Below are positions 23,859 to 43,396 of a DNA stretch of 61,716 bases, piece after piece. Below the pieces are notes generated by a model, which searched no databases, had not been told where the DNA came from, and was given only the letters and a program-made list of their open reading frames with translations. The stretch spans positions 1-61,716 of IMG/VR virus record IMGVR_UViG_3300046506_000204; one strand, 5' to 3'. The stretch is from a virus. Made by a program: the position numbers and the translations under genes. How positions within the stretch are numbered: position 1 is the first letter of the stretch; every line of letters begins with the position of its first letter.

Positions 23859-24391
23859 ACGCGCCCGTCATGAAAACCCACTGGAAGCAGCTGATCGACC
23901 CGCGCTTCCTCGGCGTCTACGCCCTGCCCAACGGCGAGGACATGACCGTCACCATCAAGTACGTCCAGAAAGAGACGATCACGATGATGGGCGGCAAGAA
24001 GGAAGACCACTCGCTCGCCTATATGGTCGAGACCAAGCCGCTGATCCTGAACTCGACCAACAGCAAGACGATCGAGAAACTGTATGGCCCCTACATCGAG
24101 GACTGGGCCGGGCGCCGCATCACGCTGTACGCGAGCACGACCAAACTCGGCAGCGAAATGGTCGAGTGCCTGCGCATCCGCACCAAGGTCCCGGCCGAGG
24201 TGAAGGAAGCGCTGCCGGCGGCGCGCATGGACAAGGCCCTGCAGGCGGTCAAGAAGGGCGACTTCGCGGCCGAGACCCTGCGCGTGAAGTACGCCCTGAG
24301 CGCGGAACAGGAAGCCCGCCTGGCCGAAGTCGAGGCCGAGCTGGCCGGCGACCAGCAGGCCGCAGCCGATGCCCCGCAGGAGGGTGCCTGA
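23855..24391 (+). CDS. Conserved phage early protein, 178 aa
   Basis: Beta-rich first 110 residues (HWKQLIDPRFLGVYALPNG, then ITLYASTTKLGSEMVECLRI) followed by a helical, Glu/Ala-rich C terminus. This pattern is familiar from phage proteins encoded next to exonucleases and SSB; they are thought to bind DNA or act as recombination accessories, but no activity is established. It overlaps both neighbours. Confidence 0.7.
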   Translation: MNAPVMKTHWKQLIDPRFLGVYALPNGEDMTVTIKYVQKETITMMGGKKEDHSLAYMVETKPLILNSTNSKTIEKLYGPYIEDWAGRRITLYASTTKLGSEMVECLRIRTKVPAEVKEALPAARMDKALQAVKKGDFAAETLRVKYALSAEQEARLAEVEAELAGDQQAAADAPQEGA

Positions 24392-24699
24392 TGCTCCCCG
24401 CACGCGAGCTGGGCATGCAGGTCGCCATCGCCCACGCTGGCGACGACTGGCGTGCCCAGGCGACCCGCGAATTGGTCCGGTTCGCGCGTGACCACGGCAC
24501 CGCGTTCCTGATCGAGGCGGTGCGACACGCCGCTGCGGAACGGGGCCTGGAAGCGCCGCCGAATGAAAAGGCGTGGGGCGCCGTGACCCAAGGGGCGCGC
24601 CGCGCCGGCCTGATCGAGCCAGCCGGGTATGCGCTTGGCTCCAACGGCAGCCCGAAACCGTTGTGGCTCGCCAGCCGCTGCCGCGATTGGCCACTGTAG
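24391..24699 (+). CDS. Small winged-helix-like protein, 102 aa
   Basis: TGATG junction with the previous gene; AGGAGG lies just upstream. The helical N terminus (TRELVRFARDHGTAFLIEAV) leads to AWGAVTQGARRAGLIEPAGY and a basic C terminus, resembling a small winged helix found in phage recombination operons. Function unknown, DNA binding likely. Confidence 0.62.
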   Translation: MLPARELGMQVAIAHAGDDWRAQATRELVRFARDHGTAFLIEAVRHAAAERGLEAPPNEKAWGAVTQGARRAGLIEPAGYALGSNGSPKPLWLASRCRDWPL

Positions 24700-24707
24700 G
24701 AGAGCGC

Positions 24708-25463
24708 GTGAACAATTTCCACTTCCGCTGCTCGTCGCTGCACACCCTGATGGCCGACCCCAAGTCGATCGACCCGGCCCTGCTCAACACCCCCGAGCTG
24801 GCCGCGCTCGCCGCCAAGAAGGTGAAAACCGACGAGGACAAGGCGATCCTGGCGCCGCTGTTCGACAGCACCTTATCAAGCGGCGCCAAGTCCTATATCG
24901 AGGACCTGGCGCAGGAGTACGTGTACGGCTACACGAACATCGTGTCGTCGAAGTACACCCAGAAAGGGATCATCGTCGAGGACGAGTCGATCGCGCTGTA
25001 CAACGAGCGCTTCTTCACGTCCTACAGGAAGAACAAGGAGCGCCGCACCAACGACTACATCACCGGCGAGTGCGACATCTATACCGGCGAGCGGATCATC
25101 GACATCAAGTCGAGCTGGTCGCTGGCGACCTTCCCCTCGCTCTCAAGCCAGGCGCACAAGACGGAATACGAGTGGCAGATGCGCGGCTACATGTGGCTCT
25201 GGGATTGCGACGAGGCCGAGGTGGCGTTCTGCCTGGTCGACACCCCCGAGGAGCTGATCGGCTACGAGAACCCGCTGCTGCACCAGTTCGGCGAGACCGA
25301 GCTGCGCGAGGAGCCGCTGCCGATCGAGCTGCGCATCACGACCATCACCTACCTGCGCGACCGCGCCATCGAGGAAAAGATCAAGCGCCGCGTCACGGCC
25401 GCGCGCGCCTACCTCGACACGATCGTCGCCCGCATCCACACCGAGCACGGCCTGCTCCACTGA
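24708..25463 (+). CDS. PD-(D/E)XK exonuclease-like protein
   Basis: GTG start at 24708 with AGGAGAG immediately upstream (251 aa). The nuclease core is visible as G-I-I-V-E-D-E (acidic residue on the first helix), then [20 protein letters not shown] near residues 115-135, giving the G-E-x-D...D-I-K active site. The following helix carries [11 protein letters not shown], the QxxxY motif of lambda-exonuclease/Cas4-type enzymes. It probably resects DNA ends in a phage recombination pathway with SSB and NinB. Confidence 0.82.
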
Positions 25464-25494
25464 CCACCCACCCAAACCAAAGGAATCCCTAGAC

Positions 25495-25923
25495 ATGGCA
25501 TCCGTCAATAAAGTCATCATCGTCGGCAACCTCGGCCGCGATCCCGAAATGCGCTACATGCCCAGCGGCGACCCGATCGCCAACATCGCCGTGGCGACGT
25601 CGTTCAAGAAGAAGGACGCCAAGACCGGCGAGCAGACCGAGCTGACCGAATGGCACCGCATTTCCTTCTTCGGCAAGCTGGCCGAGATCGTCGGGCAGTA
25701 CCTCAAGAAGGGATCGAGCGTCTACGTCGAGGGCCGCCTGCAGACCCGCAAGTACACCGACAAGGACGGCGTCGAGAAGTACGCCACCGACATCATCGCG
25801 GAGAACATGCAGATGCTGGGTGGCGGCGGTGGCGCGGGTGCGGGTGCAGGCGCGCCGACGCGTCCGGCCGCAGCGCCGCGCCCGGCGCAGCAGCCGGCGG
25901 ATCTGGGCGACGTGCCGTTTTGA
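25495..25923 (+). CDS. ssb: Single-stranded DNA-binding protein
   Basis: 142 residues with a full OB fold: [22 protein letters not shown] (abbreviated), then [13 protein letters not shown] and [12 protein letters not shown] Gly/Ala/Pro linker leads to the acidic C-terminal tip DVPF, the docking site for host replication and repair proteins. Length is slightly below cellular SSB. It would coat single strands during replication and recombination. Confidence 0.97.
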
Positions 25924-25939
25924 CGCCAGGGAGGCCACC

Positions 25940-26539
25940 ATGAACCGTCCCCTGACCCCCTGCGAGCAGTTCCTGTACAACCGCAGCCACGACTTTGCCA
26001 AGGCCAACCCGGACCCGATCCTGTACGGCGTGCGCCTGTCCGGCTTCTTCCACGAGCTGGCCTGCGCGGCGGCCGTCCTGCTCGGCGAGACCGCGTCGCC
26101 GCTGCAGATCAATGACTTCAACAACGTGTTCTGGGCCAAGCTGGCGCAGATCCAGCACGGCGTGTCCCATGACGTGCGACTGGCGCCATACGTCACCCAG
26201 CCAGAGCCGGTGCCGGCGCCCGAAGACATCCCGGCCTATGTCGCCAACCTGGCGCTGCCGCTCACCACGCCGCCGGCGCCGGCTGCCACCGTTGAACCGC
26301 ACCAATACCGCCGCGGCGGACTGCGCGGCCACCTCGTCGGCCCGGCCTATCTCAGCCCCGCCGAAATGAAGGCAAAGCGCAAGGCCCTCGGCTGGACGCA
26401 GGACCAGCTGGGCCTGGCCGCGGAACTGTCCGGCTCCTTCGTCGGCAACCTCGAGTGCGGCCAGGCACTGGGCCAGCTCAAACACTACAAGGCGCTGCGC
26501 CGCGCGCTCAATCTGCCCATCCCGGGAGAACCGCAATGA
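25940..26539 (+). CDS. XRE-family HTH protein with unknown N-terminal domain
   Basis: 199 residues; ATG with GGGAGG upstream. Residues about 1-90 are helical and unknown (CEQFLYNRSHDFAKANP, FHELACAAAVLLGE). A Pro-rich linker leads to a C-terminal helix-turn-helix at about 140-195 (LSPAEMKAKRKALGWTQDQL, then GSFVGNLECGQ). C-terminal placement of the XRE-type HTH is the reverse of the usual repressor layout. Probably an early regulator. Confidence 0.72.
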   Translation: MNRPLTPCEQFLYNRSHDFAKANPDPILYGVRLSGFFHELACAAAVLLGETASPLQINDFNNVFWAKLAQIQHGVSHDVRLAPYVTQPEPVPAPEDIPAYVANLALPLTTPPAPAATVEPHQYRRGGLRGHLVGPAYLSPAEMKAKRKALGWTQDQLGLAAELSGSFVGNLECGQALGQLKHYKALRRALNLPIPGEPQ

Positions 26540-26892
26540 ATGATAAAGACCACGACCACGAGCACGGCGCGGACTACGAAGCCGTGTTCCACCCCGACGG
26601 TGACGGCCTGCCGTGCTTCGGCTGCTACTTCGGCGCCGTGTTCGACGCCTTGTCCGAGGACCAGGTGGCATCGATCACGCTGACCCCGGACGACGTCGAC
26701 GACGAGGAGCCGGAAGCGGTCGACTACGCGCGCCGCGTGGGTGCCACGTTCGCCACCGTCGCCGATGCGGTCGCCAGCCTGGCGGTGCAGATCGCCGCCG
26801 ACGCCGCCCCCGAGCTGCTCGAAGCGTTCCACGAGCGCATCGACCACATGGTGCACCTCATCCTCGCCCCGGTAGCTGGCCATGCCCACTGA
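26536..26892 (+). CDS. Hypothetical protein, paralogue A, 118 aa
   Basis: Acidic protein with a His-rich start (DHDHEHGADYEAVF) and the core GDGLPCFGCYFGAVFDAL. The next gene has GVPCFACYFEAMFEAA at the equivalent place, followed by similar helices (DYARRVGATFATVADAV versus AYVVRAGATLGYLADSL), so the two are tandem paralogues. CFGCYF could bind metal. Function unknown. Confidence 0.68.
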   Translation: MNDKDHDHEHGADYEAVFHPDGDGLPCFGCYFGAVFDALSEDQVASITLTPDDVDDEEPEAVDYARRVGATFATVADAVASLAVQIAADAAPELLEAFHERIDHMVHLILAPVAGHAH

Positions 26893-27283
26893 CCCGATCC
26901 CGACCAACCCGGATTTCCACACCGGGTACTTCGTCAAGCACGAGGCCGACAAGCTCCCGCCCGAGGACCTGACGCTCATCGCGCGCGACAAGAACGGCGT
27001 GCCGTGCTTCGCCTGCTACTTCGAGGCGATGTTCGAGGCCGCGCCGATGCAGGACGTGGACCTGTCGCAGATCGACACCGACGGGCTGGAAGCCGACGTC
27101 GCCGCCTACGTGGTGCGCGCCGGCGCCACGCTCGGCTACCTGGCCGACTCGCTGGCCGATGTGATGGTGCGCGCGGTGTTCGAGCCGGCGAACCTGGTGC
27201 CGATCTTCGCCAAGCGCCTGGCCGAGGCCGTCGATCGCGCGAAGGCCGCGCAGGTCGAGGCGGGCGAGGAGCCGCTGATCTGA
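26882..27283 (+). CDS. Hypothetical protein, paralogue B, 133 aa
   Basis: Overlaps paralogue A by 11 bases. Shares the CFACYFEAMFEA core and the helical RAGATLGYLADSLADV segment with it but has a different N terminus (MPTDPIPTNPDFHTGYFVKH). The stop and the ninB ATG overlap. Function unknown. Confidence 0.68.
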   Translation: MPTDPIPTNPDFHTGYFVKHEADKLPPEDLTLIARDKNGVPCFACYFEAMFEAAPMQDVDLSQIDTDGLEADVAAYVVRAGATLGYLADSLADVMVRAVFEPANLVPIFAKRLAEAVDRAKAAQVEAGEEPLI

Positions 27284-27675
27284 TGCAGCGCCTGTTCGTC
27301 CTGCGCGAGGCGGCGCACCTGGCCAGCCTGGTCTCGTTCCTCACCGCGAACTGGCAGCAGTTCGCGGCCGAGGGCCGGTTCCTGGCGGTCACGGTGACGT
27401 TCTACAAGTCCAGGCGCTCGCTCGAACAGAACCGGCGCTACTTCGGGCCGGCCGTGCTGGGCGCGATCGTCGACCAGGCCTGGGTCGACGAGCGACAGTA
27501 CAACAAGAAGGTCTGGCACGACTACTTCGCTCGCATGTTCATCGGCGAGATCGACCTGCCGGGTGGGAAAACGATGGCGATGTCGTCGGCCGACCTGAAC
27601 GTCGAGGAGTTCAGCCAGTTCATGCAGCAAGTAGAAGCCTACGCCGCGAGCGAACTCGGCGTGCAGTTCACTTAA
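27283..27675 (+). CDS. ninB: NinB recombination protein
   Basis: 130 residues, the usual size of lambda NinB (Orf). The diagnostic segment is YKSRRSLEQNRRYFGPAVLG, the family's R-S-x-x-Q-N-x-x-Y/L-W pattern, followed by the YNKKVWHDYFARMFIG helix and a C-terminal FSQFMQQVEAYA helix. Lambda Orf is a recombination mediator that helps load recombinases on SSB-coated DNA, consistent with the nearby ssb and nuclease genes. Confidence 0.9.
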   Translation: MQRLFVLREAAHLASLVSFLTANWQQFAAEGRFLAVTVTFYKSRRSLEQNRRYFGPAVLGAIVDQAWVDERQYNKKVWHDYFARMFIGEIDLPGGKTMAMSSADLNVEEFSQFMQQVEAYAASELGVQFT

Positions 27676-27690
27676 ACCAAAGGAGGCACC

Positions 27691-27951
27691 ATGCCGCGCA
27701 AGAAACCCGACCCCAACACCCAGAACCCGAACCTGCTACTGGACAAGCTGCTCGAGGTCCTGGACTGCAAGAACGACGCCGCCATGTGCCGCGTGATGGA
27801 AATCGCGCCGCCGGTCATCAGCAAGATGCGCCATGGCCACAACGCCGTGACGGCCGCGTTCCTCATCAAGGCGCACGACGCCACCGGCCTGTCGATCAAC
27901 GACCTGCGCGCGCTGCTGTACGCGCCGCTCGCCGTCGCGCTGCCGGCATGA
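27691..27951 (+). CDS. Small HTH regulator, 86 aa
   Basis: AAAGGAGG lies before the ATG. Helix-turn-helix-like sequence NDAAMCRVMEIAPPVISKMR followed by AVTAAFLIKAHDATGLSIND, a pattern common to small XRE-like regulators of betaproteobacterial phages. It overlaps the next gene by ATGA. Confidence 0.68.
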   Translation: MPRKKPDPNTQNPNLLLDKLLEVLDCKNDAAMCRVMEIAPPVISKMRHGHNAVTAAFLIKAHDATGLSINDLRALLYAPLAVALPA

Positions 27952-28484
27952 GCCACATCAGCCCGAAGCTGGCTGCCCAGCTGAGCGCGCACCGCCAGGC
28001 CAAGGCGGCGAAGGCGCAAGTGAAAGCCGAGCGCGCGGCCAGGGCCGAGACCGCGCGCCGGGCCATCGAGAAGGCGCGGGCGTCGAGCCGTGCGGCCCGC
28101 CAGCTCGACCCCGAGCAGGTGCGCGAGGCCAAGTCCAAGGCCAGCCTCGCTACCGCTGCGGTCCGGGAGTCGCTGCGCGCGGCGCGCCGGCTGCAGGACC
28201 GCGCGAGCCGGGCGGCGCGGGACGCCGAGGCCGCGGCTGCCTACGCCAAGGCAATGGGCGACTATGCGCACGAGGCGATCGCGCGCACGGCCATCCTCAT
28301 GCAGGAAGCCGAGCAAGCGGTGCAGCACGCCGCGGACCTGGCCGATGCACAGCGCAAGCTGAAGCTGGGCGTGCGCCGCGTGACGATCGGCAAGGAAGTG
28401 CTGGAGTACCAGATCGGCAGCGGCAAGGCGGCCTGGATGGCGCACCTGCGCGCGATCCGTGCCGCCTACCGCAAGCTCGGCTGA
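27948..28484 (+). CDS. Ala/Arg-rich helical protein, 178 aa
   Basis: A long, nearly continuous alpha helix of low complexity, very rich in Ala, Arg, Lys and Gln (RAARQLDPEQVREAKSKASL), ending in a compact basic tail. It resembles histone H1-like or coiled-coil phage proteins. Last gene of the rightward early operon; a parS-like palindrome begins 5 bases after its stop. Confidence 0.65.
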   Translation: MSHISPKLAAQLSAHRQAKAAKAQVKAERAARAETARRAIEKARASSRAARQLDPEQVREAKSKASLATAAVRESLRAARRLQDRASRAARDAEAAAAYAKAMGDYAHEAIARTAILMQEAEQAVQHAADLADAQRKLKLGVRRVTIGKEVLEYQIGSGKAAWMAHLRAIRAAYRKLG

Positions 28485-28488
28485 GCCG

Positions 28489-28513
28489 AGGGGTGTTATT
28501 CAATAACACCCCT
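28489..28513. promoter_or_regulatory. parS-like palindrome, copy 1
   Basis: AGGGGTGTTATT (28489-28500), a central C, and AATAACACCCCT (28502-28513) make a perfect 25-bp palindrome. The 23-bp core recurs exactly inside parB at 30504-30526 and was not found elsewhere in the window. Proximity to parAB marks it as the likely ParB binding site. It also sits behind the early operon, where ParB spreading could silence genes. Confidence 0.75.
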
Positions 28514-28637
28514 CCCCAAAGTTCCAAATTTGCAATACTATGGTCCTTCAGGTTTGTGTTTTTGCCTCAGTGAAAACGCGACCGGCCCGCTGCGGGCAGG
28601 GCTGGCGCGACCACCGCCCCGCATGAAGGAGAGATAG
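28514..28637. other. Leader region of the 28638 gene
   Basis: 124 bp without a gene. AT-rich start (near 28520-28545, with TACTAT as a possible -10 at about 28536-28541), then a GC-rich hairpin-forming stretch (GGCCCGCTGCGGGCAGGGCTGG). It probably holds the promoter of the gene at 28638 and its AAGGAGAG ribosome site. Confidence 0.4.
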
Positions 28638-29282
28638 TTGGCAAAGCCCATCACCGCGTACGTGTCCGACGACGGCCAGGTGCATCGCAGCCAGGAGGAG
28701 GCCGAGTGGGCCGACTACGGCCTGGCGCTGCGCAAGGACGTCAAGGACTTCATGACCCAGCACGGCATCACCGATGCCGACGGCGCGATGGCCGCCCTGA
28801 TCGGGAAGTGGGACCTGTGGCGCCTGGGTGGCTACCCTGGCTGGCTGGCCAGCCTGCGTGGGGAGCAGGCGCCGCCGGCCGCCCCGCTGCAGCTCGCGCC
28901 CGTCGACGTGCCTGCGCCGCCGGTGCAGCTGGCCCCGGACCCCGCACCGGCGCCGATGCAGCGCGCGCCGGCGCCGGGTGACAAGCAGCCGCTGGCGTTC
29001 CGCCGCCGCGTGGCCGTGATCGCGCTGCCGCAGATCCATCACCGCATCATCGAAAACGAGTTCGGCAAGGAATTCAAGCTGCTGCTGCTGGATGCCGCTG
29101 ACTCGATGAAGGCGCTCGAATCGCTGCGCGCCTACCACAAGGTCATCGTCATGACCCGCCGGGCCAACGGCAAGACCGCGCAGATCCTGCGCGGGATCGG
29201 CCAGGAACCGCTGCTGGTCAACGGCGACATCGACGCCCTGCGCGATGCGCTGACGGCGATGTACCTGGCCAGCGCCGCATGA
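28638..29282 (+). CDS. Protein with DUF2325-like C-terminal domain, 214 aa
   Basis: TTG start with AAGGAGAG 7 bases upstream. The N-terminal 75 residues form one domain (MAKPITAYVSDDGQVHRSQE). A Pro/Ala linker follows. The C-terminal 95 residues form a Rossmann-like domain: RRVAVIALPQIHHRIIENEF, then YHKVIVMTRRANGKTAQ, then LLVNGDIDALRDAL. The same domain ends the 761-aa protein beside oriV and resembles DUF2325. The gene stands alone between parS and parAB, with its own terminator, suggesting a plasmid-maintenance role. Confidence 0.75.
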   Translation: MAKPITAYVSDDGQVHRSQEEAEWADYGLALRKDVKDFMTQHGITDADGAMAALIGKWDLWRLGGYPGWLASLRGEQAPPAAPLQLAPVDVPAPPVQLAPDPAPAPMQRAPAPGDKQPLAFRRRVAVIALPQIHHRIIENEFGKEFKLLLLDAADSMKALESLRAYHKVIVMTRRANGKTAQILRGIGQEPLLVNGDIDALRDALTAMYLASAA

Positions 29283-29326
29283 GGTAGACGCGAGCCGGGT
29301 CTCTGGACAAGGCCGACGCCGCACCC

Positions 29327-29357
29327 GCCCCGCTGCTTATCCAGCGGGGCTTTTTTT
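29327..29357 (+). terminator. Rho-independent terminator upstream of parA
   Basis: GCCCCGCTG (29327-29335), loop CTTATC, CAGCGGGGC (29342-29350), then seven T. A very stable 9-bp stem, separating the 28638 gene from parAB. Confidence 0.92.
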
Positions 29358-29390
29358 CGCCATGTCCAAGTGGTAATTTTCGGATGCGTG

Positions 29391-29419
29391 TGGCATACTT
29401 TCCGTTTTCCAATAACGGA
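29391..29419 (+). promoter_or_regulatory. parAB promoter and operator
   Basis: TGGCATACT at 29391-29399 fits an extended -10. Directly downstream, TCCGTT (29401-29406) and AACGGA (29414-29419) form an inverted repeat around TTCCAAT, ending 10 bases before the parA ATG. Such a site overlapping the start of par transcription is typical for ParA- or ParB-mediated autoregulation. Confidence 0.5.
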
Positions 29420-29429
29420 GCGTATCAAG

Positions 29430-30233
29430 ATGGCTAAAATCGTGGCGATCGTGAACCACAAGGGCGGGGTCAACAAGACCTTCGTCGCTACCGCCGGCGC
29501 GGACGCGCTGGCGCGCGAAGGCCTGGACGTGCTGCTGGTGGATTTCGATCCCCAGTTCAATGCGACCGCCCTGGTCTACAGTTTCGAGGAGCCGCCGGCG
29601 GTGCCGATCGAGCGTGTGCTGTCCGGCCAGGCCAGCATCGCCGAGGCGATCATCACCAATACCTCCATCCCGGGCGTGCACCTGCTCGGCTCGACCCTGA
29701 AACTGGCCAACCTCGAACGCGAGCTGATGTTCAGCAATCCGTTCAATGCCACCCGCCTGCTGGCCGACAAGCTGGCCCTGGTCGCCGACGCCTACGACGT
29801 GATCCTGATCGACTGCCCGCCGTCGCTGGGCACCCTGACCGCCAACGCGCTGGCCGCCGCCGACATGGTTGTGGTGCCGGTCGAATCCGGCGCCAAGCTG
29901 TCGCTGATCGGCGCGGATGACATCATCGCGTTCATCGCCAAGGCGCGCGCGGCCAACCCGAAGCTGGCGTTCGGCGGCGCCATCCTGACCAAGCACGACG
30001 GCCGCAAGCAGGTTTGCAAGATCGTCGCCAACCAGGTCCGCGCCTCGTTCGACAGCGTGTTCGAGACGGCCCTGCCAGAAAGCACCGACGTCAAGAAGGG
30101 CCAGCTGGTCGGCAAGACCATCCTGCAGGTCGACCACGACCACACCGTGTCGCGCGTGACGGTGCGCCTGATGCGCGAGCTGATGGCCAAGCTGGGCCTG
30201 CAGCGCAGGAAAGAGGAGGCCGTCGATGCCTAA
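29430..30233 (+). CDS. parA: ParA partition ATPase
   Basis: 267 residues. The deviant Walker A box is KGGVNKT near residue 11, with both signature lysines; the usual G before K is N, as P1 and F proteins have Y there. Walker A' follows as LLVDFDPQFNAT and Walker B as VILIDCPPSLG. There is no N-terminal HTH extension, so autoregulation is more likely by ParB or by ParA through the upstream palindrome. ParA would form a dynamic ATP-dependent gradient on the nucleoid to position the phage-plasmid. It overlaps parB. Confidence 0.95.
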   Translation: MAKIVAIVNHKGGVNKTFVATAGADALAREGLDVLLVDFDPQFNATALVYSFEEPPAVPIERVLSGQASIAEAIITNTSIPGVHLLGSTLKLANLERELMFSNPFNATRLLADKLALVADAYDVILIDCPPSLGTLTANALAAADMVVVPVESGAKLSLIGADDIIAFIAKARAANPKLAFGGAILTKHDGRKQVCKIVANQVRASFDSVFETALPESTDVKKGQLVGKTILQVDHDHTVSRVTVRLMRELMAKLGLQRRKEEAVDA

Positions 30234-31140
30234 GATCAGCGTAGCGGACATGGAAGCCGGCGCCGCCACGCGCCGCAAACCCGAGGACATCGCCGCCGAC
30301 CTCGACACCACCGTGTTCGGGAAGATGGGCCAGGACACGGCGCCGCCGCAGATGCTGCCGCTGACGGCGATCGTGGCCTCGCGCTACCAGAGCCGCGGGC
30401 GGATGGACGAGGAGTACATGGAGAACCTGGTCGAGGGCATCCGCATGGACGGCCTGCACGACCCGATCATCGTACGCCCGCTGCCACCCGAGCAATCCGA
30501 GGGGGGGTGTTATTCAATAACACCCCGCTTCGAGCTGGTTGCCGGCCACCACCGGGTCGAGGCGTTCCGCCGGCTTGGCCGCACCGAGATCCCGGCGTTC
30601 GTCCGGGCGCTATCGGACGCCGAGGCCGCCAGAGCACTGACCACCGAAAACACCAACCGCAAGAACCTCGCCCACTGGGAGCTGTACAAGCACATGCAGA
30701 TGCTGCGCGCGGCCGGCGCGATCCGGTTCAACACCGAGCTGGCCCGCCTGCTCAACATCGACCGCACCGCGATCCCCCAGCTGGATGCGTTCGGCCTGCT
30801 GCCGCAGTCCGCGCAGGATCTGCTGGACGACAAGCCGGACCTGTTCGGCTACAACCTGGCGCACAAGCTCAAGCCCTTCCTGCCGGAGCACGGCATGCTG
30901 GTGTTTGACGCCCTGGTGCTGCTATCCAAGGGCAAGCTGGCCCAGGCGGCGGTGCCGGCCTGGATCGACGAGAAGGTCAACCCACGGCCGAAGAAGCTGC
31001 GCAAGGATTTCGCGCTCGCCGGCGGCGTGCGTCTGGTCGTCACAGATGACGGCGCCCGCGTGACCGGCAACATCGACTACGACGCGCTCCACCAGCTGGT
31101 CGAGGCGCACCTTCCCCAGCTGCTCAAAGCTCACCAATAG
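30226..31140 (+). CDS. parB: ParB partition protein (contains parS)
   Basis: 304 residues with the ParB/Spo0J fold. PIIVRPLP leads to VAGHHRVEAFRRLG, and TTENTNRKNLAHWELYKHMQ matches box II; the G-E-R-R box is here G-H-H-R. The central helix-turn-helix is NTELARLLNIDRTAIPQ, and the C terminus is a dimer domain. Between PLPPEQ and FELVAGHHR lies an insert, EGGCYSITPR, whose DNA is the second parS palindrome. The protein would bind parS and connect the phage-plasmid to ParA. Confidence 0.93.
   Translation: MPKISVADMEAGAATRRKPEDIAADLDTTVFGKMGQDTAPPQMLPLTAIVASRYQSRGRMDEEYMENLVEGIRMDGLHDPIIVRPLPPEQSEGGCYSITPRFELVAGHHRVEAFRRLGRTEIPAFVRALSDAEAARALTTENTNRKNLAHWELYKHMQMLRAAGAIRFNTELARLLNIDRTAIPQLDAFGLLPQSAQDLLDDKPDLFGYNLAHKLKPFLPEHGMLVFDALVLLSKGKLAQAAVPAWIDEKVNPRPKKLRKDFALAGGVRLVVTDDGARVTGNIDYDALHQLVEAHLPQLLKAHQ
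30504..30526. promoter_or_regulatory. parS-like palindrome, copy 2, inside parB
   Basis: GGGGTGTTATT (30504-30514), C, AATAACACCCC (30516-30526): identical to the core of the copy at 28489-28513. It is translated as part of ParB (residues near GCYSITP) in a loop between conserved strands. parS within par coding sequence is known in some chromosomes and plasmids but is uncommon inside parB itself. Confidence 0.78.
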
Positions 31141-31178
31141 TCACACATTCTCACGCGATGCGCGCCAGATAAAAACAG

Positions 31179-31207
31179 TTGCCGCCGTTCATATAGTCCA
31201 ATAATAA
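31179..31207 (+). promoter_or_regulatory. Promoter before the 31240 operon
   Basis: TTGCCG (31179-31184), 17-bp spacer, TAATAA (31202-31207), followed by an AT-rich leader ending at the ATG at 31240. The spacing and AT-richness stand out in this GC-rich DNA. Confidence 0.45.
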
Positions 31208-31239
31208 TAGTGCTTGTTCCATACCGTTAATTACAGCCC

Positions 31240-31611
31240 ATGTTCAAAGTTCCAGAGCGCTTTCGCTTCACCACCGGGATGTTCGGCACCACGCCAGAGG
31301 CTGGCAACAACGGCTGCTTCCTGGTCAAGCTGGCGCGCAACCAGACCCTGAAAGTCATCGCTTCCGACAAGGAAGGATGGGAGCACGTTTCCGTGTCGCG
31401 GCAGGACCGTTGTCCGACGTGGGAGGAGATGTGCGCGGTGAAGGACCTGTTCTGGGACCACGAGGACTGCGTGATGCAGCTGCACCCGCCGAAATCCGAC
31501 TGGGTCTCGAACCACCCCTACTGTTTACATATGTGGCGCCCGATCGGCGTCGAGATCCCGCGACCGCCCGACCTGATGGTCGGCATCGCCAGCATGGGCA
31601 CCCTGAAATGA
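31240..31611 (+). CDS. Conserved phage protein, 123 aa
   Basis: A compact protein containing EHVSVSRQDRCPTWEEMCAV, WDHEDCVMQLHPPKSDWVS and LHMWRP in order. This combination recurs in proteins of many phages (DUF7694-like). The pattern of conserved His, Trp and Asp suggests an enzyme or nucleotide-binding role, but nothing is known. First gene of a long run of small genes leading to trfA. Confidence 0.75.
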   Translation: MFKVPERFRFTTGMFGTTPEAGNNGCFLVKLARNQTLKVIASDKEGWEHVSVSRQDRCPTWEEMCAVKDLFWDHEDCVMQLHPPKSDWVSNHPYCLHMWRPIGVEIPRPPDLMVGIASMGTLK

Positions 31612-31937
31612 CCGACCACCATACCCCCTTGACCCCTGAACTGGCCGACGCCCTCACGACGCTGGCCGGCCAGGTGCTCGACCTGACGCGCAAGGCGACC
31701 GAGAAGACCCCTGAACTGGCCTGGCTGCACGTTGTGGGCGCGCTGGCCGTGGCCTGCCGTGGCCTGGCCGCGACCGCGATGGCGGACGACCCGAAGCTGG
31801 ACCTCGACACGGCGCGCCAGATGATGACGCTCCAGTTCATCAACGTGATGTCGCTGCCGGTCGAGCTGGTGCGCGTGATGAAGTCCAAGCCCGGCGAGGA
31901 CCAGCAGACGGTCGTGGTGCCGGTGCGGAGGCACTGA
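31608..31937 (+). CDS. Hypothetical protein, 109 aa
   Basis: Begins in the stop of the preceding gene. Helical, hydrophobic-moment-rich sequence (ELADALTTLAGQVLDLTRKA) with AVACRGLAATAMA in the middle. No transmembrane call is made; the C terminus is charged. Its stop overlaps the next start. Confidence 0.62.
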   Translation: MTDHHTPLTPELADALTTLAGQVLDLTRKATEKTPELAWLHVVGALAVACRGLAATAMADDPKLDLDTARQMMTLQFINVMSLPVELVRVMKSKPGEDQQTVVVPVRRH

Positions 31938-32086
31938 TGATTCCCGAACCCGACATCGACTGGACCGTGCGCCTGCCGTGGCCGACCATCTGCAAGCTGG
32001 CTTGCCAGGCGCGCCTCCGCAACATCAGCCTGGAAGCGCTGGTGGTCGAGGCGCTGTCCGAGGATCTCGCAAGGAGGAACGCATGA
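31937..32086 (+). CDS. Arc-type ribbon-helix-helix protein, 49 aa
   Basis: A 49-codon gene with ATG at 31937 and stop at 32084-32086 overlapping the next gene. Residues 8-45 follow the ribbon-helix-helix pattern: a short strand (WTVRLPWPT), a helix (CKLACQARLRN) and a second helix starting with S-L-E-A-L-V-V-E-A-L. Small phage Arc/Mnt-type repressors have this size. It may be the autoregulator of this operon. Confidence 0.6.
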   Translation: MIPEPDIDWTVRLPWPTICKLACQARLRNISLEALVVEALSEDLARRNA

Positions 32087-32508
32087 CGCCGGATGAACTG
32101 GAAACCCAGCGCCGGATCGGCTACCTGTTCGGCCTGCTGGAGCCGATGATGCGCGAGCTGGACCGGATCTACCGGCCGGGCCGCTTCATCCTGTTCAAGA
32201 TGGCCGAGCACAGGAAGGGCAAGCGCCTGCTGTACCGGGCCGACGCGATCCTGGCCGAGATCGCGCGCCTGCGCGGCGAGGAGCACCGCCCGCTGCCGCC
32301 GCTCGACGCTCCCCCACTGATCGGCCACCCGCTGTTCTGGCTCGTGGTGCAGTGGCTGGTCGGGATCTGCAACGCCTACAGCCTGATCGAATACGTGGCG
32401 GCTGGTCGCTGGGGCCTGGCCGCGCTGTCCCTCGCGTGCCTGGTGGTCTGCCTGCTGTGGCGCGTCCCTCCGCTCCGCCTGGCCCGGCAGGGCAAGTGGC
32501 GCGCATAA
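32083..32508 (+). CDS. Membrane protein, 141 aa
   Basis: A soluble helical N-terminal half (RRIGYLFGLLEPMMRELD) and a C-terminal half with one or two transmembrane helices: PLFWLVVQWLVGI and LAALSLACLVVCLLWRV. AAGGAGG precedes the ATG. Topology suggests an inner-membrane protein with a cytoplasmic N-terminal domain. Function unknown. Confidence 0.65.
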   Translation: MTPDELETQRRIGYLFGLLEPMMRELDRIYRPGRFILFKMAEHRKGKRLLYRADAILAEIARLRGEEHRPLPPLDAPPLIGHPLFWLVVQWLVGICNAYSLIEYVAAGRWGLAALSLACLVVCLLWRVPPLRLARQGKWRA

Positions 32509-32526
32509 CCCCTATCGAAAGACCCT

Positions 32527-32847
32527 ATGACTGACAACAAGAAAGAACGCAACCAACACGACACCGCGCTGGCGGCGCAGAAGTTCCTGGAAGCGATCGG
32601 CACGGCCATGATCGACAACGAGATCCCGCCGAAGCTGGCCGTGAACCTGTTCGGCTTTTACGCGCGGCGCGTGGTGGCCGTCGAGGTCGAAGAGGGCGCC
32701 GACGAACCGGACATGATTCACCAGGTGTTCGACGCCTTCGCCGAAGGGCTGGGCCTGAAAACGGCCGTGGCCAAGCTGGAGGGCGAGGCCGCCGAGCAGC
32801 TGAAAGCCCAGTTCGAGCAGCAGAACAGCGACACCCCGCTGCAGTGA
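32527..32847 (+). CDS. Hypothetical protein, 106 aa
   Basis: Small helical acidic protein (KKERNQHDTALAAQKFLEAI, later VFDAFAEGLGLKTAV). No strong ribosome site and no recognised domain. Its predicted size and composition resemble the 87-aa protein at 33352, which also has a helix followed by an NLFGFYARR/HLFGQIARG motif; the two may be distant relatives. Confidence 0.62.
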   Translation: MTDNKKERNQHDTALAAQKFLEAIGTAMIDNEIPPKLAVNLFGFYARRVVAVEVEEGADEPDMIHQVFDAFAEGLGLKTAVAKLEGEAAEQLKAQFEQQNSDTPLQ

Positions 32848-32854
32848 GCATGCC

Positions 32855-33355
32855 ATGACCGATACAACGATTGTCTCCCGCATGATCCTGGGCGCCGAGT
32901 TCGACCCCGAACTGGTCAAGGTGCTGCGCGAGGCGCACGGCCTGGACGAGGACGTGCAGATCAACATGAACGTGTTCGAGACCACCGTCTCGCGCGGCAA
33001 GCGTACCGGCCAGGTGCTGTGCTGCTGGGCCGGCGGCAAGATCGACAAGGACGGCTGGCAGAACGCCAGCGACCTGCAGCTGACCCTGGCAGGGCGCGCC
33101 GCGATCGACGCCCTGATGAAGCTGCCGGCGTGCGTCGACCCGAAGCCGGGACGCACCGGCCGCATGGTGGTGCGCGAGCTGCGCATCGGCAAGACCCCGC
33201 TGCGCGACAAGGTGATCGACGCCGTGCTGGCTGCCGAGCCGGGCGACCGCATCGCCTTTGTCGGCGACCTGGCCGGCGAGCTGGACGGCAAGATGGGCGT
33301 CACGTTCAACCCGAGCGCCGAGCCGATCTACATGAACCCCGAGGACTACCTGTGA
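32855..33355 (+). CDS. Hypothetical protein, 166 aa
   Basis: Soluble protein with a beta-rich middle (TGQVLCCWAGGKIDKDGW). No recognised catalytic pattern. Its stop overlaps the GTG start of the next gene. Function unknown. Confidence 0.65.
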   Translation: MTDTTIVSRMILGAEFDPELVKVLREAHGLDEDVQINMNVFETTVSRGKRTGQVLCCWAGGKIDKDGWQNASDLQLTLAGRAAIDALMKLPACVDPKPGRTGRMVVRELRIGKTPLRDKVIDAVLAAEPGDRIAFVGDLAGELDGKMGVTFNPSAEPIYMNPEDYL

Positions 33356-33615
33356 CGAGCGACAAGATCCCGAAGAAATACGACGAGTTCGTGCGCCGCG
33401 TGGCCCTGCTGGCCAAGGAGCTGCAGATCTCGCCCAGCGAAGGCCTGCACCTGTTCGGCCAGATCGCGCGCGGTTTTGTCGAGCACGCCCATGCGCGCGG
33501 CGACGCCGAGGTCGAGGAGCTGGCGTCGGCCGCCCTGAACCGTTTTGCGACCGGCTTCGGCGGCGAGGCGTCCGAGATCACGGTCAAGGGCGTGCCGGAC
33601 GGAGGCCTGCATTGA
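33352..33615 (+). CDS. Hypothetical protein, 87 aa
   Basis: GTG start overlapping the upstream stop. Helical, with EGLHLFGQIARGFVEHA similar to the KLAVNLFGFYARRVV segment of the 32527 protein. No recognised function. Confidence 0.6.
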   Translation: MTSDKIPKKYDEFVRRVALLAKELQISPSEGLHLFGQIARGFVEHAHARGDAEVEELASAALNRFATGFGGEASEITVKGVPDGGLH

Positions 33616-33794
33616 AGCCCGTCACCGAAACCGCGCTGTTGCTGGTCGTGGTCATCGTGTTCGCCTCGCTCGGCATGGCCGCGCATTTCTGGACCGACTC
33701 GCCGTTGACCGCCCTGGCCCTGTACGGGGCGCCGATGGTGGCCGGGTTCGCCTGCGGCCGCATCACCGGGATGGTCGCCAGGGCCAGCGCATGA
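33612..33794 (+). CDS. Small membrane protein, 60 aa
   Basis: TTG start overlapping the upstream stop. Two hydrophobic helices (TALLLVVVIVFASLGMAAHF and ALALYGAPMVAGFACG) span almost the whole protein, so it should be a two-pass inner-membrane protein. Holin-like size, but it lies far from the lysis genes, so function is left open. Confidence 0.58.
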   Translation: MKPVTETALLLVVVIVFASLGMAAHFWTDSPLTALALYGAPMVAGFACGRITGMVARASA

Positions 33795-34015
33795 ATTTCT
33801 TGAGCATCTGGACCGTCTACCGCCGCCCGGACGACTTCCCCGAGCACTTCGTGGCCCGCCGCCACGAGGTGAAGGTGGGCGGCAAGCTCGTCGTGACCGA
33901 CGAGATCCTGATCGCGGACACCCTGGACGGCGTGCGTGCGCAGCTGCCGCCGGGGTTGCACCGCATCGTCCGCCAGCCGGACGACAAACCTTCGATCGTG
34001 GAGACCTGGCTATGA
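33791..34015 (+). CDS. Hypothetical protein, 74 aa
   Basis: ATGA overlaps on both sides. Contains YRRPDDFPEHFVARRHEV and a C-terminal GLHRIVRQPDDKPSIVETW, a pattern seen in small phage proteins of unknown role. Soluble. Confidence 0.65.
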   Translation: MNFLSIWTVYRRPDDFPEHFVARRHEVKVGGKLVVTDEILIADTLDGVRAQLPPGLHRIVRQPDDKPSIVETWL

Positions 34016-34332
34016 GCGACAACGTCAAGCAGCTGCAGTGCAGCATCATTGCGATGGGCGAGATCCTGGAGGACAGCGTGAACGCGCTGCGCGGCGCGCC
34101 GCCGGACGACTGCTCGTGGTCGACCCACGACACCGCCGAGCTGGTCAGGAAGGCGGCGGCGCTGGCCAACGCCTACCTGGCCGCGACCGTCCTCGGTGCC
34201 GACGAGTTCGACTTCGGGCGCCTGCGCGAAGCGGCCGACGCCTGGCGCGCGGTGCGCGCCGAGACCCTGCTGCAGGCGAACCAGATGATCGCCTGGCGCG
34301 ACAACCCCAACCTGTTTGCCTGCGAGGACTGA
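34012..34332 (+). CDS. Hypothetical protein, 106 aa
   Basis: Helical protein, acidic N terminus, with a conserved-looking DDCSWSTHDTAELVRKAAAL segment. Coupled to the upstream gene. No recognised domain. Confidence 0.62.
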   Translation: MSDNVKQLQCSIIAMGEILEDSVNALRGAPPDDCSWSTHDTAELVRKAAALANAYLAATVLGADEFDFGRLREAADAWRAVRAETLLQANQMIAWRDNPNLFACED

Positions 34333-34333
34333 C

Positions 34334-34675
34334 ATGAGCGAGATCACCCCGACCGATCCCTACACCAACGCCCTGATCGACGCCGCCGTGGAACACGCGA
34401 GCGCCTATGACGACGACGACCGCGAGTGCATCAAGACCGACGTGATGAACGGTTTCTATGCCGGCGCGGCCTGGCACGCCAGCCTCGCCCCCGATGCTGA
34501 ACTGACGGCCAGACTGGAAGCGGCGCAGCGAGAGCTGGCCGTGTTCCACGCCGAGCAGCCGCGCGTGTGGGAAACCAGCCGCGAGCATGGCGAGTTCCTG
34601 ACCACGATCCGCGAGCTGCAGGCCGCGCTGGGCACCGCTCGCGCCCGTATAGCCGAGCTGGAGCAGGCGACGTGA
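34334..34675 (+). CDS. Coiled-coil protein, 113 aa
   Basis: The C-terminal 60 residues form a long helix with heptad-like spacing (ELTARLEAAQRELAVFHAEQ, then LTTIRELQAALGTARARIAE). The N-terminal half is acidic. A GTG-start gene overlaps its stop. Function unknown. Confidence 0.62.
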   Translation: MSEITPTDPYTNALIDAAVEHASAYDDDDRECIKTDVMNGFYAGAAWHASLAPDAELTARLEAAQRELAVFHAEQPRVWETSREHGEFLTTIRELQAALGTARARIAELEQAT

Positions 34676-34920
34676 GCGCGCCGATCTGCGCCTGGTGCGA
34701 CGAACCCGTCCTGAACGACGACCGCCGCGCCCCGAACTATGTGCAGCCGACCCATTACGAGTGCGGCCTGCGCGCCGCGCTCGGCTCGGTCGGGCACCAG
34801 AAGAAGCGCTGTTTCTGCTTTGGCGGGGATGAAGAAGACCCGCCGGGCCTGACCCGCCGCCAGGCCGCCACCGCGGCCGCCCTGTATTTCCACCTTAACC
34901 CGCAACCAACAGAACCATGA
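34672..34920 (+). CDS. Zinc-binding phage protein, 82 aa
   Basis: GTG start overlapping the upstream stop. Cysteine pattern C-A-W-C at residues 6-9, then YECGLRAALGSVGHQKKRCF, then LTRRQAATAAALYFHL. This H/C...LR..LGS.GH....C order recurs in small proteins of many phages and probably forms a zinc knuckle. Role unknown. Confidence 0.7.
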   Translation: MSAPICAWCDEPVLNDDRRAPNYVQPTHYECGLRAALGSVGHQKKRCFCFGGDEEDPPGLTRRQAATAAALYFHLNPQPTEP

Positions 34921-35264
34921 CCCGTACTCCACACGCGGCCGCGCTGGCCGATGTACTCCCGCTGATCGAAGCGCTCGAACTGCCCTACCTGGAATCCCTG
35001 CAGCAGCTGCTGGCCGACCATATCGCCAAGCGCCGCATCGAGCTGATCGCCGAGGCACGCGCGAAGATCGCCCGCATCGCCTTGAACGTCGGCCTGTCGG
35101 CCGAGGAGATCCTGGCGATGAAGCCGGGACGCTTCCATGCCGGGCGCGGCGAACCGAAATACCGGAACCCGGAAACCGGCAAGACGTGGAGCGGGCTGGG
35201 CACGGTGCCAGGCTGGATCAAGGGCAAGGATAGGGCTGCGTTCCTGATCGGAGGTAACGCATGA
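34917..35264 (+). CDS. H-NS family nucleoid protein 1
   Basis: 115 residues. The N-terminal helical oligomerisation region (LPLIEALELPYLESLQQLLADH) is followed by a linker and the C-terminal H-NS DNA-binding core, YRNPETGKTWSGLGTVPGWI, with the conserved Y-R/K-x-P-x-T-G-x-T-W-x-G-x-G-x-x-P-x-W. It would bind AT-rich DNA such as oriV and the promoter regions. A second copy follows at once. Confidence 0.88.
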   Translation: MTRTPHAAALADVLPLIEALELPYLESLQQLLADHIAKRRIELIAEARAKIARIALNVGLSAEEILAMKPGRFHAGRGEPKYRNPETGKTWSGLGTVPGWIKGKDRAAFLIGGNA

Positions 35265-35758
35265 GCGACCTGCACAAGAACTGGCAGGCCTACCAGGAGC
35301 TGCAGCAGCAGATCAAGGCGCTGCAGGAGAAAGCCACCCTGCTCATGATGGAGGGCCGCAGCGCCGCCATCAACGACATCAAGGCCTTGATCGCGGCCTA
35401 CGACCTCACCGCCGAGGAACTCGGCTACGCGGTGGCCCCGCCGCCGCCCAGGCGCGAGCGCAAGCCCGAGAAGAAGCGCGACCGCAGCGTGAAGAACCCG
35501 CCCAAGTACAGGGACCCCGGCAGCGGCCTGACCTGGACCGGCAACGGCCGCGTGCCGGACTGGCTGATCGGGAAGAACTACGACGACTTCCTGATCGACA
35601 GGCCGGCGCCGCAGGAAAAGCCGGTCCTGGTGCCGCCGCACGAGTACGCCCCGGCCCCGTCGCCGGCGGTGGACGCCAGCCATGCGGTCCAGGGGATGGT
35701 GTCGGCCAGCATGCCGCAGCCGGCCGCCGCGTGGCCAGATCCGCGCCAGAACAGCTAA
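35261..35758 (+). CDS. H-NS family nucleoid protein 2
   Basis: 165 residues, overlapping the first H-NS gene by ATGA. Coiled N terminus (ELQQQIKALQEKATLLMMEG), basic linker, core YRDPGSGLTWTGNGRVPDWL, then an extra Pro/Ala-rich tail of about 55 residues absent from typical H-NS. Betaproteobacterial H-NS-like proteins (Bph3/BpH3 type) can have such layouts. Located just upstream of trfA and the AT-rich origin, it may silence or tune both. Confidence 0.87.
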   Translation: MSDLHKNWQAYQELQQQIKALQEKATLLMMEGRSAAINDIKALIAAYDLTAEELGYAVAPPPPRRERKPEKKRDRSVKNPPKYRDPGSGLTWTGNGRVPDWLIGKNYDDFLIDRPAPQEKPVLVPPHEYAPAPSPAVDASHAVQGMVSASMPQPAAAWPDPRQNS

Positions 35759-35810
35759 GCAACCCCGGGCCACGTCCTGGCCCGCCTCACAACACAACGA
35801 TAGGACAAGC

Positions 35811-36845
35811 ATGCCGGACGATTCCACTCCGCAGCAGCGCGCGCTCGACCTGAAAACGAAGGCAAGGACGATGGAGGCCGAACTGAAACGGTTCGCCCCC
35901 GTCCAGCTGCCGTACTGGCACGACGAGGTGCGCGCGATCGCCAACGAACTGACCCGCTGCGCGCTGGTCTCGACCAAGACCGGCGGCGCGCCGCGCCGCT
36001 ACTACCACAACGAGCGCCTGTTCACGCTCGGCGGCGACGACGCGGCCGTCACCATGACTGGCGAGGAGATCCGCGGCAACGACTGGAAAACGTTCCTGAC
36101 GCTGGCGCACCTGGCGCGCGAGCAGAAGGCGGGCGACCTGGTGGTCCGGGTGAAAAGCTCGACCATCTGCAAGCTCAACAACTGGGCGACCCGCCAGACC
36201 TACTACACCGAGATCTACAACTCGATGCTGCGCCTGTCGGCCGTATCCCTGATGATCTACTCGCGCCGCCTGACCAAGATGCGCGCCTACGAGAAGGCGC
36301 GCGCCGCCGTCGGCTCGGTCGAAATGCTGGCCGCCATGTACGACGAGATCCGCGCGATCGAGGAGCAGGAGCTGGCCGCCACCGACGTCTCGGGCATGCA
36401 GCTGCGCATGATCGACAGCGGCGTGCGCTTCACCGGCGGCAAGGCCCCGATCGACGACGTCCCGCAGGGCGATCTCGCGTGGGAGATCCCGATGGACCCG
36501 AACATGATCCTGCTGTTCGCCAAGGAGTGGCTGACGCTGGTCGACGAGACCGCGCAGAGCGAGATGTCGGCCGGCGCCGTCATCCTGCAGGCCTACTATT
36601 GCGGCCACAAGATCCCGAACAACGTCTACGTGAAAAATCTGGCCAGGCTGCTGCAGCTGACCTGTTCGCCCAAGGAACAGAAGCGCATCGTCAAGCAGCG
36701 CCTGCAGGAGCTGGTCGACCACAAGGTGCTGGTCAAATTCTGGTTCAGCCAGGGCAGGGACGGCGAGCTGGTGCACGTCGAGCGTGCCAAATGGGACGGC
36801 AAGGGCCAGCGCGACGGCGAAGAAACCGAGGAAAAAGCGGCGTGA
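35811..36845 (+). CDS. trfA: TrfA-type plasmid replication initiator
   Basis: 344 residues; start at 35811, after TAGGACAAG. It follows the TrfA layout: VQLPYWHDEVRAIANELTRC, then YHNERLFTLGG, MTGEEIRGNDWKTFLTLAHL and two winged-helix-like segments, the first around WATRQTYYTEIYNSMLRLSA and the second near ARLLQLTCSPKEQKRIVKQ. RK2 TrfA binds iterons and loads host DnaB at oriV. Here six iterons and three DnaA boxes follow directly, so this gene and its origin form a complete replicon for the lysogenic state. Confidence 0.9.
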   Translation: MPDDSTPQQRALDLKTKARTMEAELKRFAPVQLPYWHDEVRAIANELTRCALVSTKTGGAPRRYYHNERLFTLGGDDAAVTMTGEEIRGNDWKTFLTLAHLAREQKAGDLVVRVKSSTICKLNNWATRQTYYTEIYNSMLRLSAVSLMIYSRRLTKMRAYEKARAAVGSVEMLAAMYDEIRAIEEQELAATDVSGMQLRMIDSGVRFTGGKAPIDDVPQGDLAWEIPMDPNMILLFAKEWLTLVDETAQSEMSAGAVILQAYYCGHKIPNNVYVKNLARLLQLTCSPKEQKRIVKQRLQELVDHKVLVKFWFSQGRDGELVHVERAKWDGKGQRDGEETEEKAA

Positions 36846-36854
36846 GCAGTCATC

Positions 36855-37193
36855 TTATCCACAGAAAACGACACACCGGGCATGGAAAACGACACACCGG
36901 AGCAGGGTCCTCAATGGAAAACGACACACCGGCCAGCGCAAACGACACACCGTTTACGGCAAACGACACACCGTTTTTGGAAAACGACCCACCGGACCAT
37001 GTTGATAAGCGGCTACATATCAACAGTTTACGGCACTTATCCACACCCCCATAAACCTTCTTTTAAACCTTCTTATAAACCCAGGGGGAAACTTATCCAC
37101 AAAAGGTGCTTTTGACGATGACGTGCAGACATTGTTCGCTAAAGTCGACTTTAAGCATTGTTTAACTACGGCTTGACGCAAACGACACACCTT
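36855..37193 (+). other. Plasmid origin of replication (oriV) with iterons and DnaA boxes
   Basis: Seven iterons with core AAACGACACACC lie on the plus strand at 36866, 36887, 36919, 36940, 36961, 36982 (one change, GACCCACC) and 37180. The first six are spaced 21, 32, 21, 21 and 21 bp, i.e. two or three helical turns, so all face the same side. Three perfect DnaA boxes TTATCCACA stand at 36855-36863, 37037-37045 and 37093-37101. The AT-rich stretch at about 37050-37080, with TAAACCTTCTT repeated, is the probable melting region. A perfect palindrome AAAGTCGACTTT sits at 37141-37152. Confidence 0.9.
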
Positions 37194-37263
37194 CGTGAAC
37201 ATCCACCGACCCTGTAGGACACTGCTTACAAAAACTCACCAATATTCACAGTGTCAGAAATTA

Positions 37264-37383
37264 CCAACGCATTTAAGCACTTGATTTGAAAAACAAAACC
37301 AGAGCGGTGCCGAGTGAAAAGCGCTCACAGCAGGTAACTGAAGCATTACAGGGAAACTTAAAAAAAAATAACAAATGCGTTGG
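37264..37383. repeat. Long-spaced inverted repeat upstream of 761-aa gene
   Basis: CCAACGCATTT (37264-37274) and AAATGCGTTGG (37373-37383) are exact complements 98 bp apart, within the 247-bp non-coding region between oriV and the 37441 gene. The region is AT-rich, with runs of A at 37360-37370. The arms could bind the multi-repeat protein encoded next door, or form a stem in the leader RNA. No other gene is seen in 37194-37440. Confidence 0.5.
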
Positions 37384-37440
37384 AAACCAGGTGCGTTTTC
37401 GTTACGATGAGATTCCAAACAGAAAAAAATCGCTGATCCC

Positions 37441-43338: not shown

Positions 43339-43396
43339 GACGTCTAGCCCCTAGACGTCATCCGGTCAATACCTTCTAGCGGCTAGAAGGTATAAT
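43339..43396 (+). promoter_or_regulatory. Promoter with two CTAG operator palindromes
   Basis: GACGTCTAG/CTAGACGTC (43339-43359) and TACCTTCTAG/CTAGAAGGTA (43370-43392) are perfect palindromes with a 3-bp centre; both contain CTAGnnnCTAG. Their centres are 32 bp apart, three helical turns. The second overlaps a consensus -10 TATAAT at 43391-43396, just upstream of the 43405 gene. This is a repressible promoter controlled by an unidentified dimeric regulator. Confidence 0.72.

Follow-up and report, generated by a model that had tools for sequence, protein, structure and literature searches.

Why a perfect palindrome should lie inside the coding sequence of a partition gene, and which protein would read it there, are the questions raised by the par locus of a viral record from IMG/VR. 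The window analysed here, a stretch of 61,716 nucleotides, carries a parA gene adjoining a parB gene, and the marks of a putative ParABS system are present in the sequence: a deviant Walker ParA, a ParB with ParB_N and helix-turn-helix (HTH) regions, CTP motifs, and palindromes near parAB. In ParABS systems generally, ParB binds parS and spreads from it as a CTP clamp, and ParA moves the resulting complex. The same general action is outlined in the introduction of PMC13245405. The features of the window on which the analysis draws are as follows.

27691-27951, + strand: orf27691, 86 aa, with a weak CI-repressor HTH match; present near parAB in 11 of 11 relatives
28488-28514, no strand: 27-bp palindrome of the upstream site, sharing its 23-bp core with the embedded palindrome; proposed parS/operator
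28536-28541, + strand: conserved TACTAT, -10-like by resemblance only, 21 bp past the upstream palindrome
28638-29282, + strand: orf28638, 214 aa, without a family match
29327-29350, + strand: terminator-like stem and T run, ahead of parA
29404-29416, + strand: GTTTTCCAATAAC, a 2-mismatch match to the palindrome core, directly ahead of parA
29430-30233, + strand: parA, 267 aa, deviant Walker ATPase with KGGVNKT (Pfam AAA_31, E 3e-40; PHROG ParA-like, 1.3e-52)
30226-31140, + strand: parB, 304 aa, ParB_N plus HTH (Pfam ParB_N, E 4.2e-15; PHROG ParB-like; fold match Noc/ParB/KorB)
30481-30528, + strand: codons for hairpin-loop residues 86-101, which two strands of the N-terminal domain flank in the AlphaFold2 model
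30504-30526, no strand: embedded palindrome GGGGTGTTATTCAATAACACCCC, proposed parS, codons of ParB residues 93-99
35814-36845, + strand: TrfA-like replication initiator (Pfam TrfA, E 3.5e-11)

Direct reading of positions 30504-30526 confirmed that parB contains a perfect odd palindrome, GGGGTGTTATTCAATAACACCCC, of 23 bp with arms of 11, as a preliminary description of this DNA had claimed. The same description placed an identical copy at 28489-28513; the copy exists, but its 23 bp occupy 28490-28512 and perfect symmetry extends over 27 bp (28488-28514), starting 3 nt past the stop codon of orf27948 and ending 123 bp ahead of the start of orf28638. The two copies begin 2014 bp apart, with orf28638 and parA between them, in keeping with the claimed distance of about 2 kb. 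When up to three mismatches were allowed, two matches to the palindrome were found in the window against none in each of 100 dinucleotide shuffles, and perfect odd palindromes with arms of at least 11 numbered three against 0.046 expected, the third (43369-43393) being unrelated to GGGGTGTTATTCAATAACACCCC. A looser search with the core gave three matches against 0.14 expected, a count which takes in both exact copies; the remaining one, GTTTTCCAATAAC, is perhaps a decayed site or a chance match. Many further copies, it had been argued, would indicate another function, and a search of the whole record found the palindrome at these two places and no others; since this is a linear record of 61,716 bases only, the genome may be incomplete and further sites are possible. 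An exact search of the viral contig collection with the window palindrome gave 0 matches; near relatives may be missing from that collection, and the relatives described below spell their palindromes differently.

Within ParB the embedded palindrome is translated in frame as GCYSITP (residues 93-99). An AlphaFold2 model of the protein, built from 7 sequences (mean pLDDT 73.0) and with Noc, ParB and KorB structures as its best Foldseek matches, places this peptide between strands 81-85 and 102-106, with pLDDT below 50 at residues 92-97, and thus agrees with the earlier description of a variable loop between conserved strands. The alignment shows GHHR at 107-110 and ENTNR at 141-145, which we take to be the CTP-binding motifs GxxR and ENxxR. 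At the loop position of the alignment the turn is much shorter in the ParBs of two plasmid loci (L015 and L017), and the phage ParB loop is therefore an insertion relative to those two.

Judged from the sequence, neither the choice of codons nor a need for these amino acids accounts for the palindrome. Synonymous codons were resampled by each gene's own usage with the amino acids fixed, and among 200,000 draws per gene the observed pairing was reached once for the window, 5 times each for the relatives L006 and L008, 14 times each for L003 and L009, 22 times for L013, 84 for L005, 120 for L010, 4,592 for L004 and 8,066 for L012, the weakest case. The seven inner codons have a third-position GC of 0.29 as against 0.91 in the remainder of the window parB, and the site uses codons which the larger GC-rich reading frames of the window seldom choose for the amino acid concerned (ATA, 2 of 462 Ile; ACA, 10 of 729 Thr; TCA, 11 of 655 Ser).

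Viral scans of IMG/VR yielded 11 related loci on 10 contigs (L003-L013), with ParBs 53-75% identical to that of the window. L003 and L007 are on the same contig, and L006/L007 and L010/L011 are near copies; with L007 and L011 dropped, the non-redundant set consists of nine relatives and the window. Further viral scans using L013 and A2 as queries gave no new contigs (L031-L033 being the same contigs re-cut), and one using the ParB of the Azoarcus plasmid pAZKH found none. A scan of bacterial genome contigs returned only a 60-residue Treponema match, which was set aside. The preliminary description had proposed comparing the loop in related ParBs, and in 11 of 11 relatives a palindrome was found at the same place in parB, in the same loop, its reading frame being common to the nine non-redundant relatives and the window. 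The pattern GTGTNATNNNATNACAC was present in nine of the 11 records searched whole (window included), two or three times per par locus and not elsewhere, with five sites in G001, which has two par loci. The records of L008 and L012 carry GTGGACATNNNATGTCCAC instead, three and two times with one copy at one mismatch, again at the par locus only; a reversed control pattern gave 0 matches in the 11 records.

The copies within a genome appear to change together. The variable base x of GTGTxAT is the same in embedded and outside copies in 10 of 10 non-redundant genomes, being T in the window, L005 and L010, G in L003, L004 and L006, A in L009, and C in L008, L012 and L013; the sole exception is one half of one L010 copy, with C for T. 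The three central bases of the palindrome vary freely, and in L004, L005, L010 and L012 the embedded copy has imperfect outer arms (8 or 9 of 11 pairs). While every genome has the embedded copy, the outside copies differ in place: they lie ahead of orf28638 only in the window and L006, ahead of parA only in L004, L005, L009, L012 and L013, and ahead of both in L003, L008 and L010. In relatives having it, the parA-proximal copy stands 70-126 bp ahead of the parA ATG; in the window the terminator-like stem at 29327-29350 occupies the place where some relatives have this copy.

Two comparisons show the change at close range. L008 and L010 agree in 157 of 163 alignment columns over the flank past the upstream site and yet differ in the palindrome; orf27691 is 99% and orf28638 90% identical, ParA only 60% and ParB 69%, the palindrome having been swapped along with ParA and ParB. 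Between the window and L003, 35 of 39 columns are identical just downstream of the upstream site and 20 of 25 across it, where the differences are a symmetric pair at the variable base, central bases and one edge base. A tree paired the window with L004 (100/99) despite their different bases (T and G), and left its deep forks without resolution. It was also observed that L008 and L010, with near-identical upstream genes but different parAB and palindromes, have seemingly exchanged the par module as a unit with its sites.

Covariation between protein and site was analysed in 10 of the 12 phage sequences, L007 and L011 being left out as near copies. Among 197 variable ParB columns outside the loop, 179 and 213 were most associated with the variable base; p values from shuffled labels, which ignore kinship and the multiplicity of 197 columns, were 0.004 for 179 and 0.005 for 213 and lie at about 0.004-0.008 each overall. 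Column 67 ranked third (p 0.012, kinship and multiplicity likewise ignored). According to the model, residue 179 would fall where the recognition helix region begins and 213 in the second helix after it. These positions presumably correspond to S172/R173 and G201/R204 of Caulobacter ParB, in an alignment made by eye and uncertain by one or two residues. In Caulobacter, S172, R173, G201 and R204 contact parS, according to PMC7383237. A shuffle-free measure over 209 columns ranked loop residue 96, which amounts to the variable base itself, first, ParB 213 second (NMI 0.85) and 179 fourth (0.73); the best ParA column (0.73) equalled ParB 179, and the best orf27691 column reached 0.63. The ParBs of the window and L004 have the same residue 179 (D) and different bases (T and G), and of the two positions only 213 differs between them. 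We rejected orf27691 as the reader of the palindrome, since it is near-identical in L008 and L010, which have different sites.

The record around this locus carries a terminase large subunit (TerL), an endolysin and a CI-like repressor together with TrfA and ParAB. This occurrence of phage genes and TrfA/ParAB on one element led us to read it as a phage-plasmid, probably a temperate phage kept as a plasmid. A TrfA homologue was present in the examined region of 11 of 11 relatives, and a homologue of orf28638 in seven (L003, L006, L007, L008, L010, L011 and L012). An end repeat was looked for in the linear window record and not found. The stretch 24001-38000 had no close DNA in common with deposited phages, and the terminase was less than 60% identical to those of all 50 phage records matched.

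The occurrence of loop palindromes in more distant ParBs was surveyed in 14 plasmid and two phage (L029, L030) loci. A loop palindrome with close copies was found in two of the 16, both plasmids (Azoarcus pAZKH and Robbsia p2), and no such loop site in the other 12 plasmid loci, or in 14 of the 16 loci overall. The loop motif was missed in four of these (L018, L019, L021 and L026), where only palindromes with arms of at least 7, or copied ones, were listed, and by reading none of those listed falls in the hairpin. The phage ParBs L029 and L030, of 954 and 772 residues, matched over the ParB_N part only, and a GC-rich loop palindrome in L029, with 2-mismatch copies only, was scored as negative. 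In pAZKH, GTCAGACTCTGAC has five exact copies in 737,589 bases, four lying no more than 8 kb from the parB start, while TGCCACAGTGTGGCA and a second copy are the only two in the 206,007 bases of Robbsia p2, and both lie in the loop. As in the window, the palindrome of these plasmids sits in the same hairpin loop and has matching copies, in 34-38% identical ParBs. Unlike those of the phages, however, the palindromes are other ones (GTCAGA.TCTGAC; GCCACA.TGTGGC), partly in other frames. Because frame and sequence differ, common descent with the phage trait cannot be claimed, and the partly different frame of the plasmid sites would allow for more than one installation.

As far as sequence comparison can tell, there is strong support for regarding the palindrome as a parS-like site of ParB which has been retained within parB: it is present at the same place in 11 relatives, its letters agree within each genome, further copies are absent, and the DNA-reading positions of ParB track the variable base. 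The explanation which we favour, with a probability of about 0.85, is that it constitutes the parS of a type Ia-like ParABS system on a TrfA-type phage-plasmid, with one copy placed in a loop of the CTPase-type domain of ParB and kept there by selection at the DNA level. The HTH of ParB would read both palindromes; by analogy with ParB CTPases, the protein, loaded with CTP as a clamp, would slide and spread over the par locus, and ParA would move the ParB complex and so segregate the plasmid prophage. The loop codons, and with them residues 93-99, would be dictated by the binding site, and a change in ParB specificity would therefore rewrite all copies, the coding one included.

The simplest use of the embedded copy would be nucleation at a place where recombination cannot easily part the site from parB. 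The preliminary description had gone further, in holding that parS cannot be separated from parB: the embedded copy is indeed the only one present in every genome, which would fit such inseparability. Its suggestion of direct autoregulation through the embedded copy found no support, a search for a promoter-like site near this copy having found none. The upstream copies are better placed for such a role, and repression at the window's upstream copy is plausible because it ends 21 bp ahead of the -10-like TACTAT.

Other explanations were weighed against this one. The palindromes could be bound as operators by some other regulator at the locus, whether orf27691, orf28638 or the phage repressor, the copy in parB being a secondary operator; the weak CI-type HTH match of orf27691, its position near parAB in 11 of 11 relatives and the TACTAT beside the upstream copy would suit this. 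However, orf27691 and orf28638 are 99% and 90% identical in L008 and L010, where the palindromes differ, the best orf27691 column (NMI 0.63) falls below ParB 213 (0.85) and 179 (0.73), orf28638 has no match in four of the 11 relatives, and tblastn found no match to either gene in the L015 and L016 regions, which have loop palindromes; on this evidence from orf27691 and orf28638 we consider another regulator improbable. A perfect palindrome can also fold upon itself, and the upstream copy follows closely on the orf27948 stop codon, as might be expected of an RNA hairpin acting as attenuator, terminator or mRNA stability element. For such a hairpin pairing would suffice, yet copies within a genome agree in their letters while genomes differ; neither copy is followed by a T run, a terminator scan gave none with either palindrome as its stem, and the three central bases vary freely, so that we consider a role in RNA very improbable.

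It is scarcely credible that the palindrome simply follows from codons for a peptide kept for the protein's sake. The loop peptide GCxSITP is indeed similar in eight of the 10 non-redundant sequences, but in L008 and L012 the peptide is another one (GHTMS), still with a palindrome matching their outside copies; the resampling and the rare codons disagree with such a coincidence, the low pLDDT of the loop (below 50) speaks against it, and the existence of outside copies contradicts it. Rather less easily dismissed, though still unlikely, is the view that the sites are true parS but that the embedded one is a dispensable decoy or roadblock which tunes parAB expression and is not a working centromere. 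A ParB clamp loaded within its own gene could hinder transcription, and the upstream copies do lie near promoter-like elements; against this, the embedded copy alone is present in all genomes, and the loop of Robbsia p2 holds the only copies of that plasmid.

Returning to the favoured reading, of a parS kept in the ParB loop by selection on the DNA, a broader proposal can be made tentatively, at a little under even odds. The hairpin loop of the CTPase-type domain may be a centromere slot in this clade of ParBs, the insertion existing to carry parS and serving as the primary and most constant nucleation site, while the sequence in it would have been replaced repeatedly (by no fewer than three unrelated palindromes, over two frames). 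Some amino acids of ParB would then be written by its own DNA specificity, a specificity switch would travel as one gene, and the centromere of Robbsia p2 would lie wholly inside parB.

The placing of parS within parB is itself a known kind of arrangement, given the precedents of B. subtilis, the Streptomyces plasmids SCP1 and SCP2, and Burkholderia cenocepacia. The parS of B. subtilis is chromosomal, of the universal kind and present in many copies. PMC4442127 places parS-359 within the parB (spo0J) gene, as proposed here; the window differs in having a phage-specific palindrome in a hairpin loop of the N-terminal domain. In Streptomyces, parB1 and parB2 of SCP1 each have an internal parS, which the authors removed by recoding both genes, and further identical copies surround the operon (PMC13245405); parT of SCP2 likewise has an internal parS (PMC12260392). 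These sites are 13-bp and 19-bp inverted repeats, with binding established by ChIP-seq and BLI (PMC13245405; PMC12260392). Each of these genes holds its own parS, as is proposed for the window, where comparison places a copy of the putative ParB site in the parB reading frame.

The parBp1 gene of a B. cenocepacia plasmid has an internal parSp1 (PMC4948915). Plasmid pBCJ2315, presumably p1 of that report, has a parB which adjoins a trfA gene by annotation and contains two perfect palindromes, near residues 46 and 181 and outside the hairpin loop, either of which may be parSp1. A trfA gene and, on our reading, an internal parS are shared with the window; judged from these two palindromes, the hairpin position is not. 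Borrelia ParZ is reported to bind within its own gene (PMC9712426); intragenic binding is what we propose here too, although ParZ is described there as a novel centromere-binding protein which takes the place of ParB. In the literature searched, no description was found of a hairpin position kept across a clade, of concerted change, or of copies confined to the loop as in Robbsia p2, and we regard the conserved hairpin position, the concerted change within genomes and the turnover of sequence as new.

These loci form a natural series: a DNA-binding protein and its sites have apparently changed in concert on several occasions, and, one site being embedded in the coding sequence of its reader, the change can be traced simultaneously in both DNA and protein. 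How ParB-parS specificity can switch without loss of partition would become open to direct testing, as would the effect of an intragenic ParB loading site on parAB transcription. As a caution, expressing or moving such parB genes moves the centromere too.

Several minor observations were made alongside. The contig G001 (117,858 bases), which carries L003 and L007, has two par loci of the same site specificity and two TrfA matches, one of which ends at the edge of the examined stretch; it is either a cointegrate or the product of an assembly that merged two related elements. Inside the parA of pAZKH lies a perfect 18-bp palindrome, AGTGCTGAATTCAGCACT (L015, 4831-4848), with no second copy in the examined region. 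Four copies of GGCCTGAACTCAGGCC lie downstream of an Azonexus plasmid parB (L017, 6219-6720) and may be the parS cluster of this ParB, which has no loop site. In the window itself, an open frame of 5,422 codons on the minus strand (45421-61689) occupies the last part of the record and by its size would encode a giant phage protein. Finally, two palindromes at 43339-43393, GACGTCTAGCCCCTAGACGTC and ATACCTTCTAGCGGCTAGAAGGTAT, have CTAG half-sites in common, stand just ahead of the gene at 43405, and look like the operator pair of another regulator.
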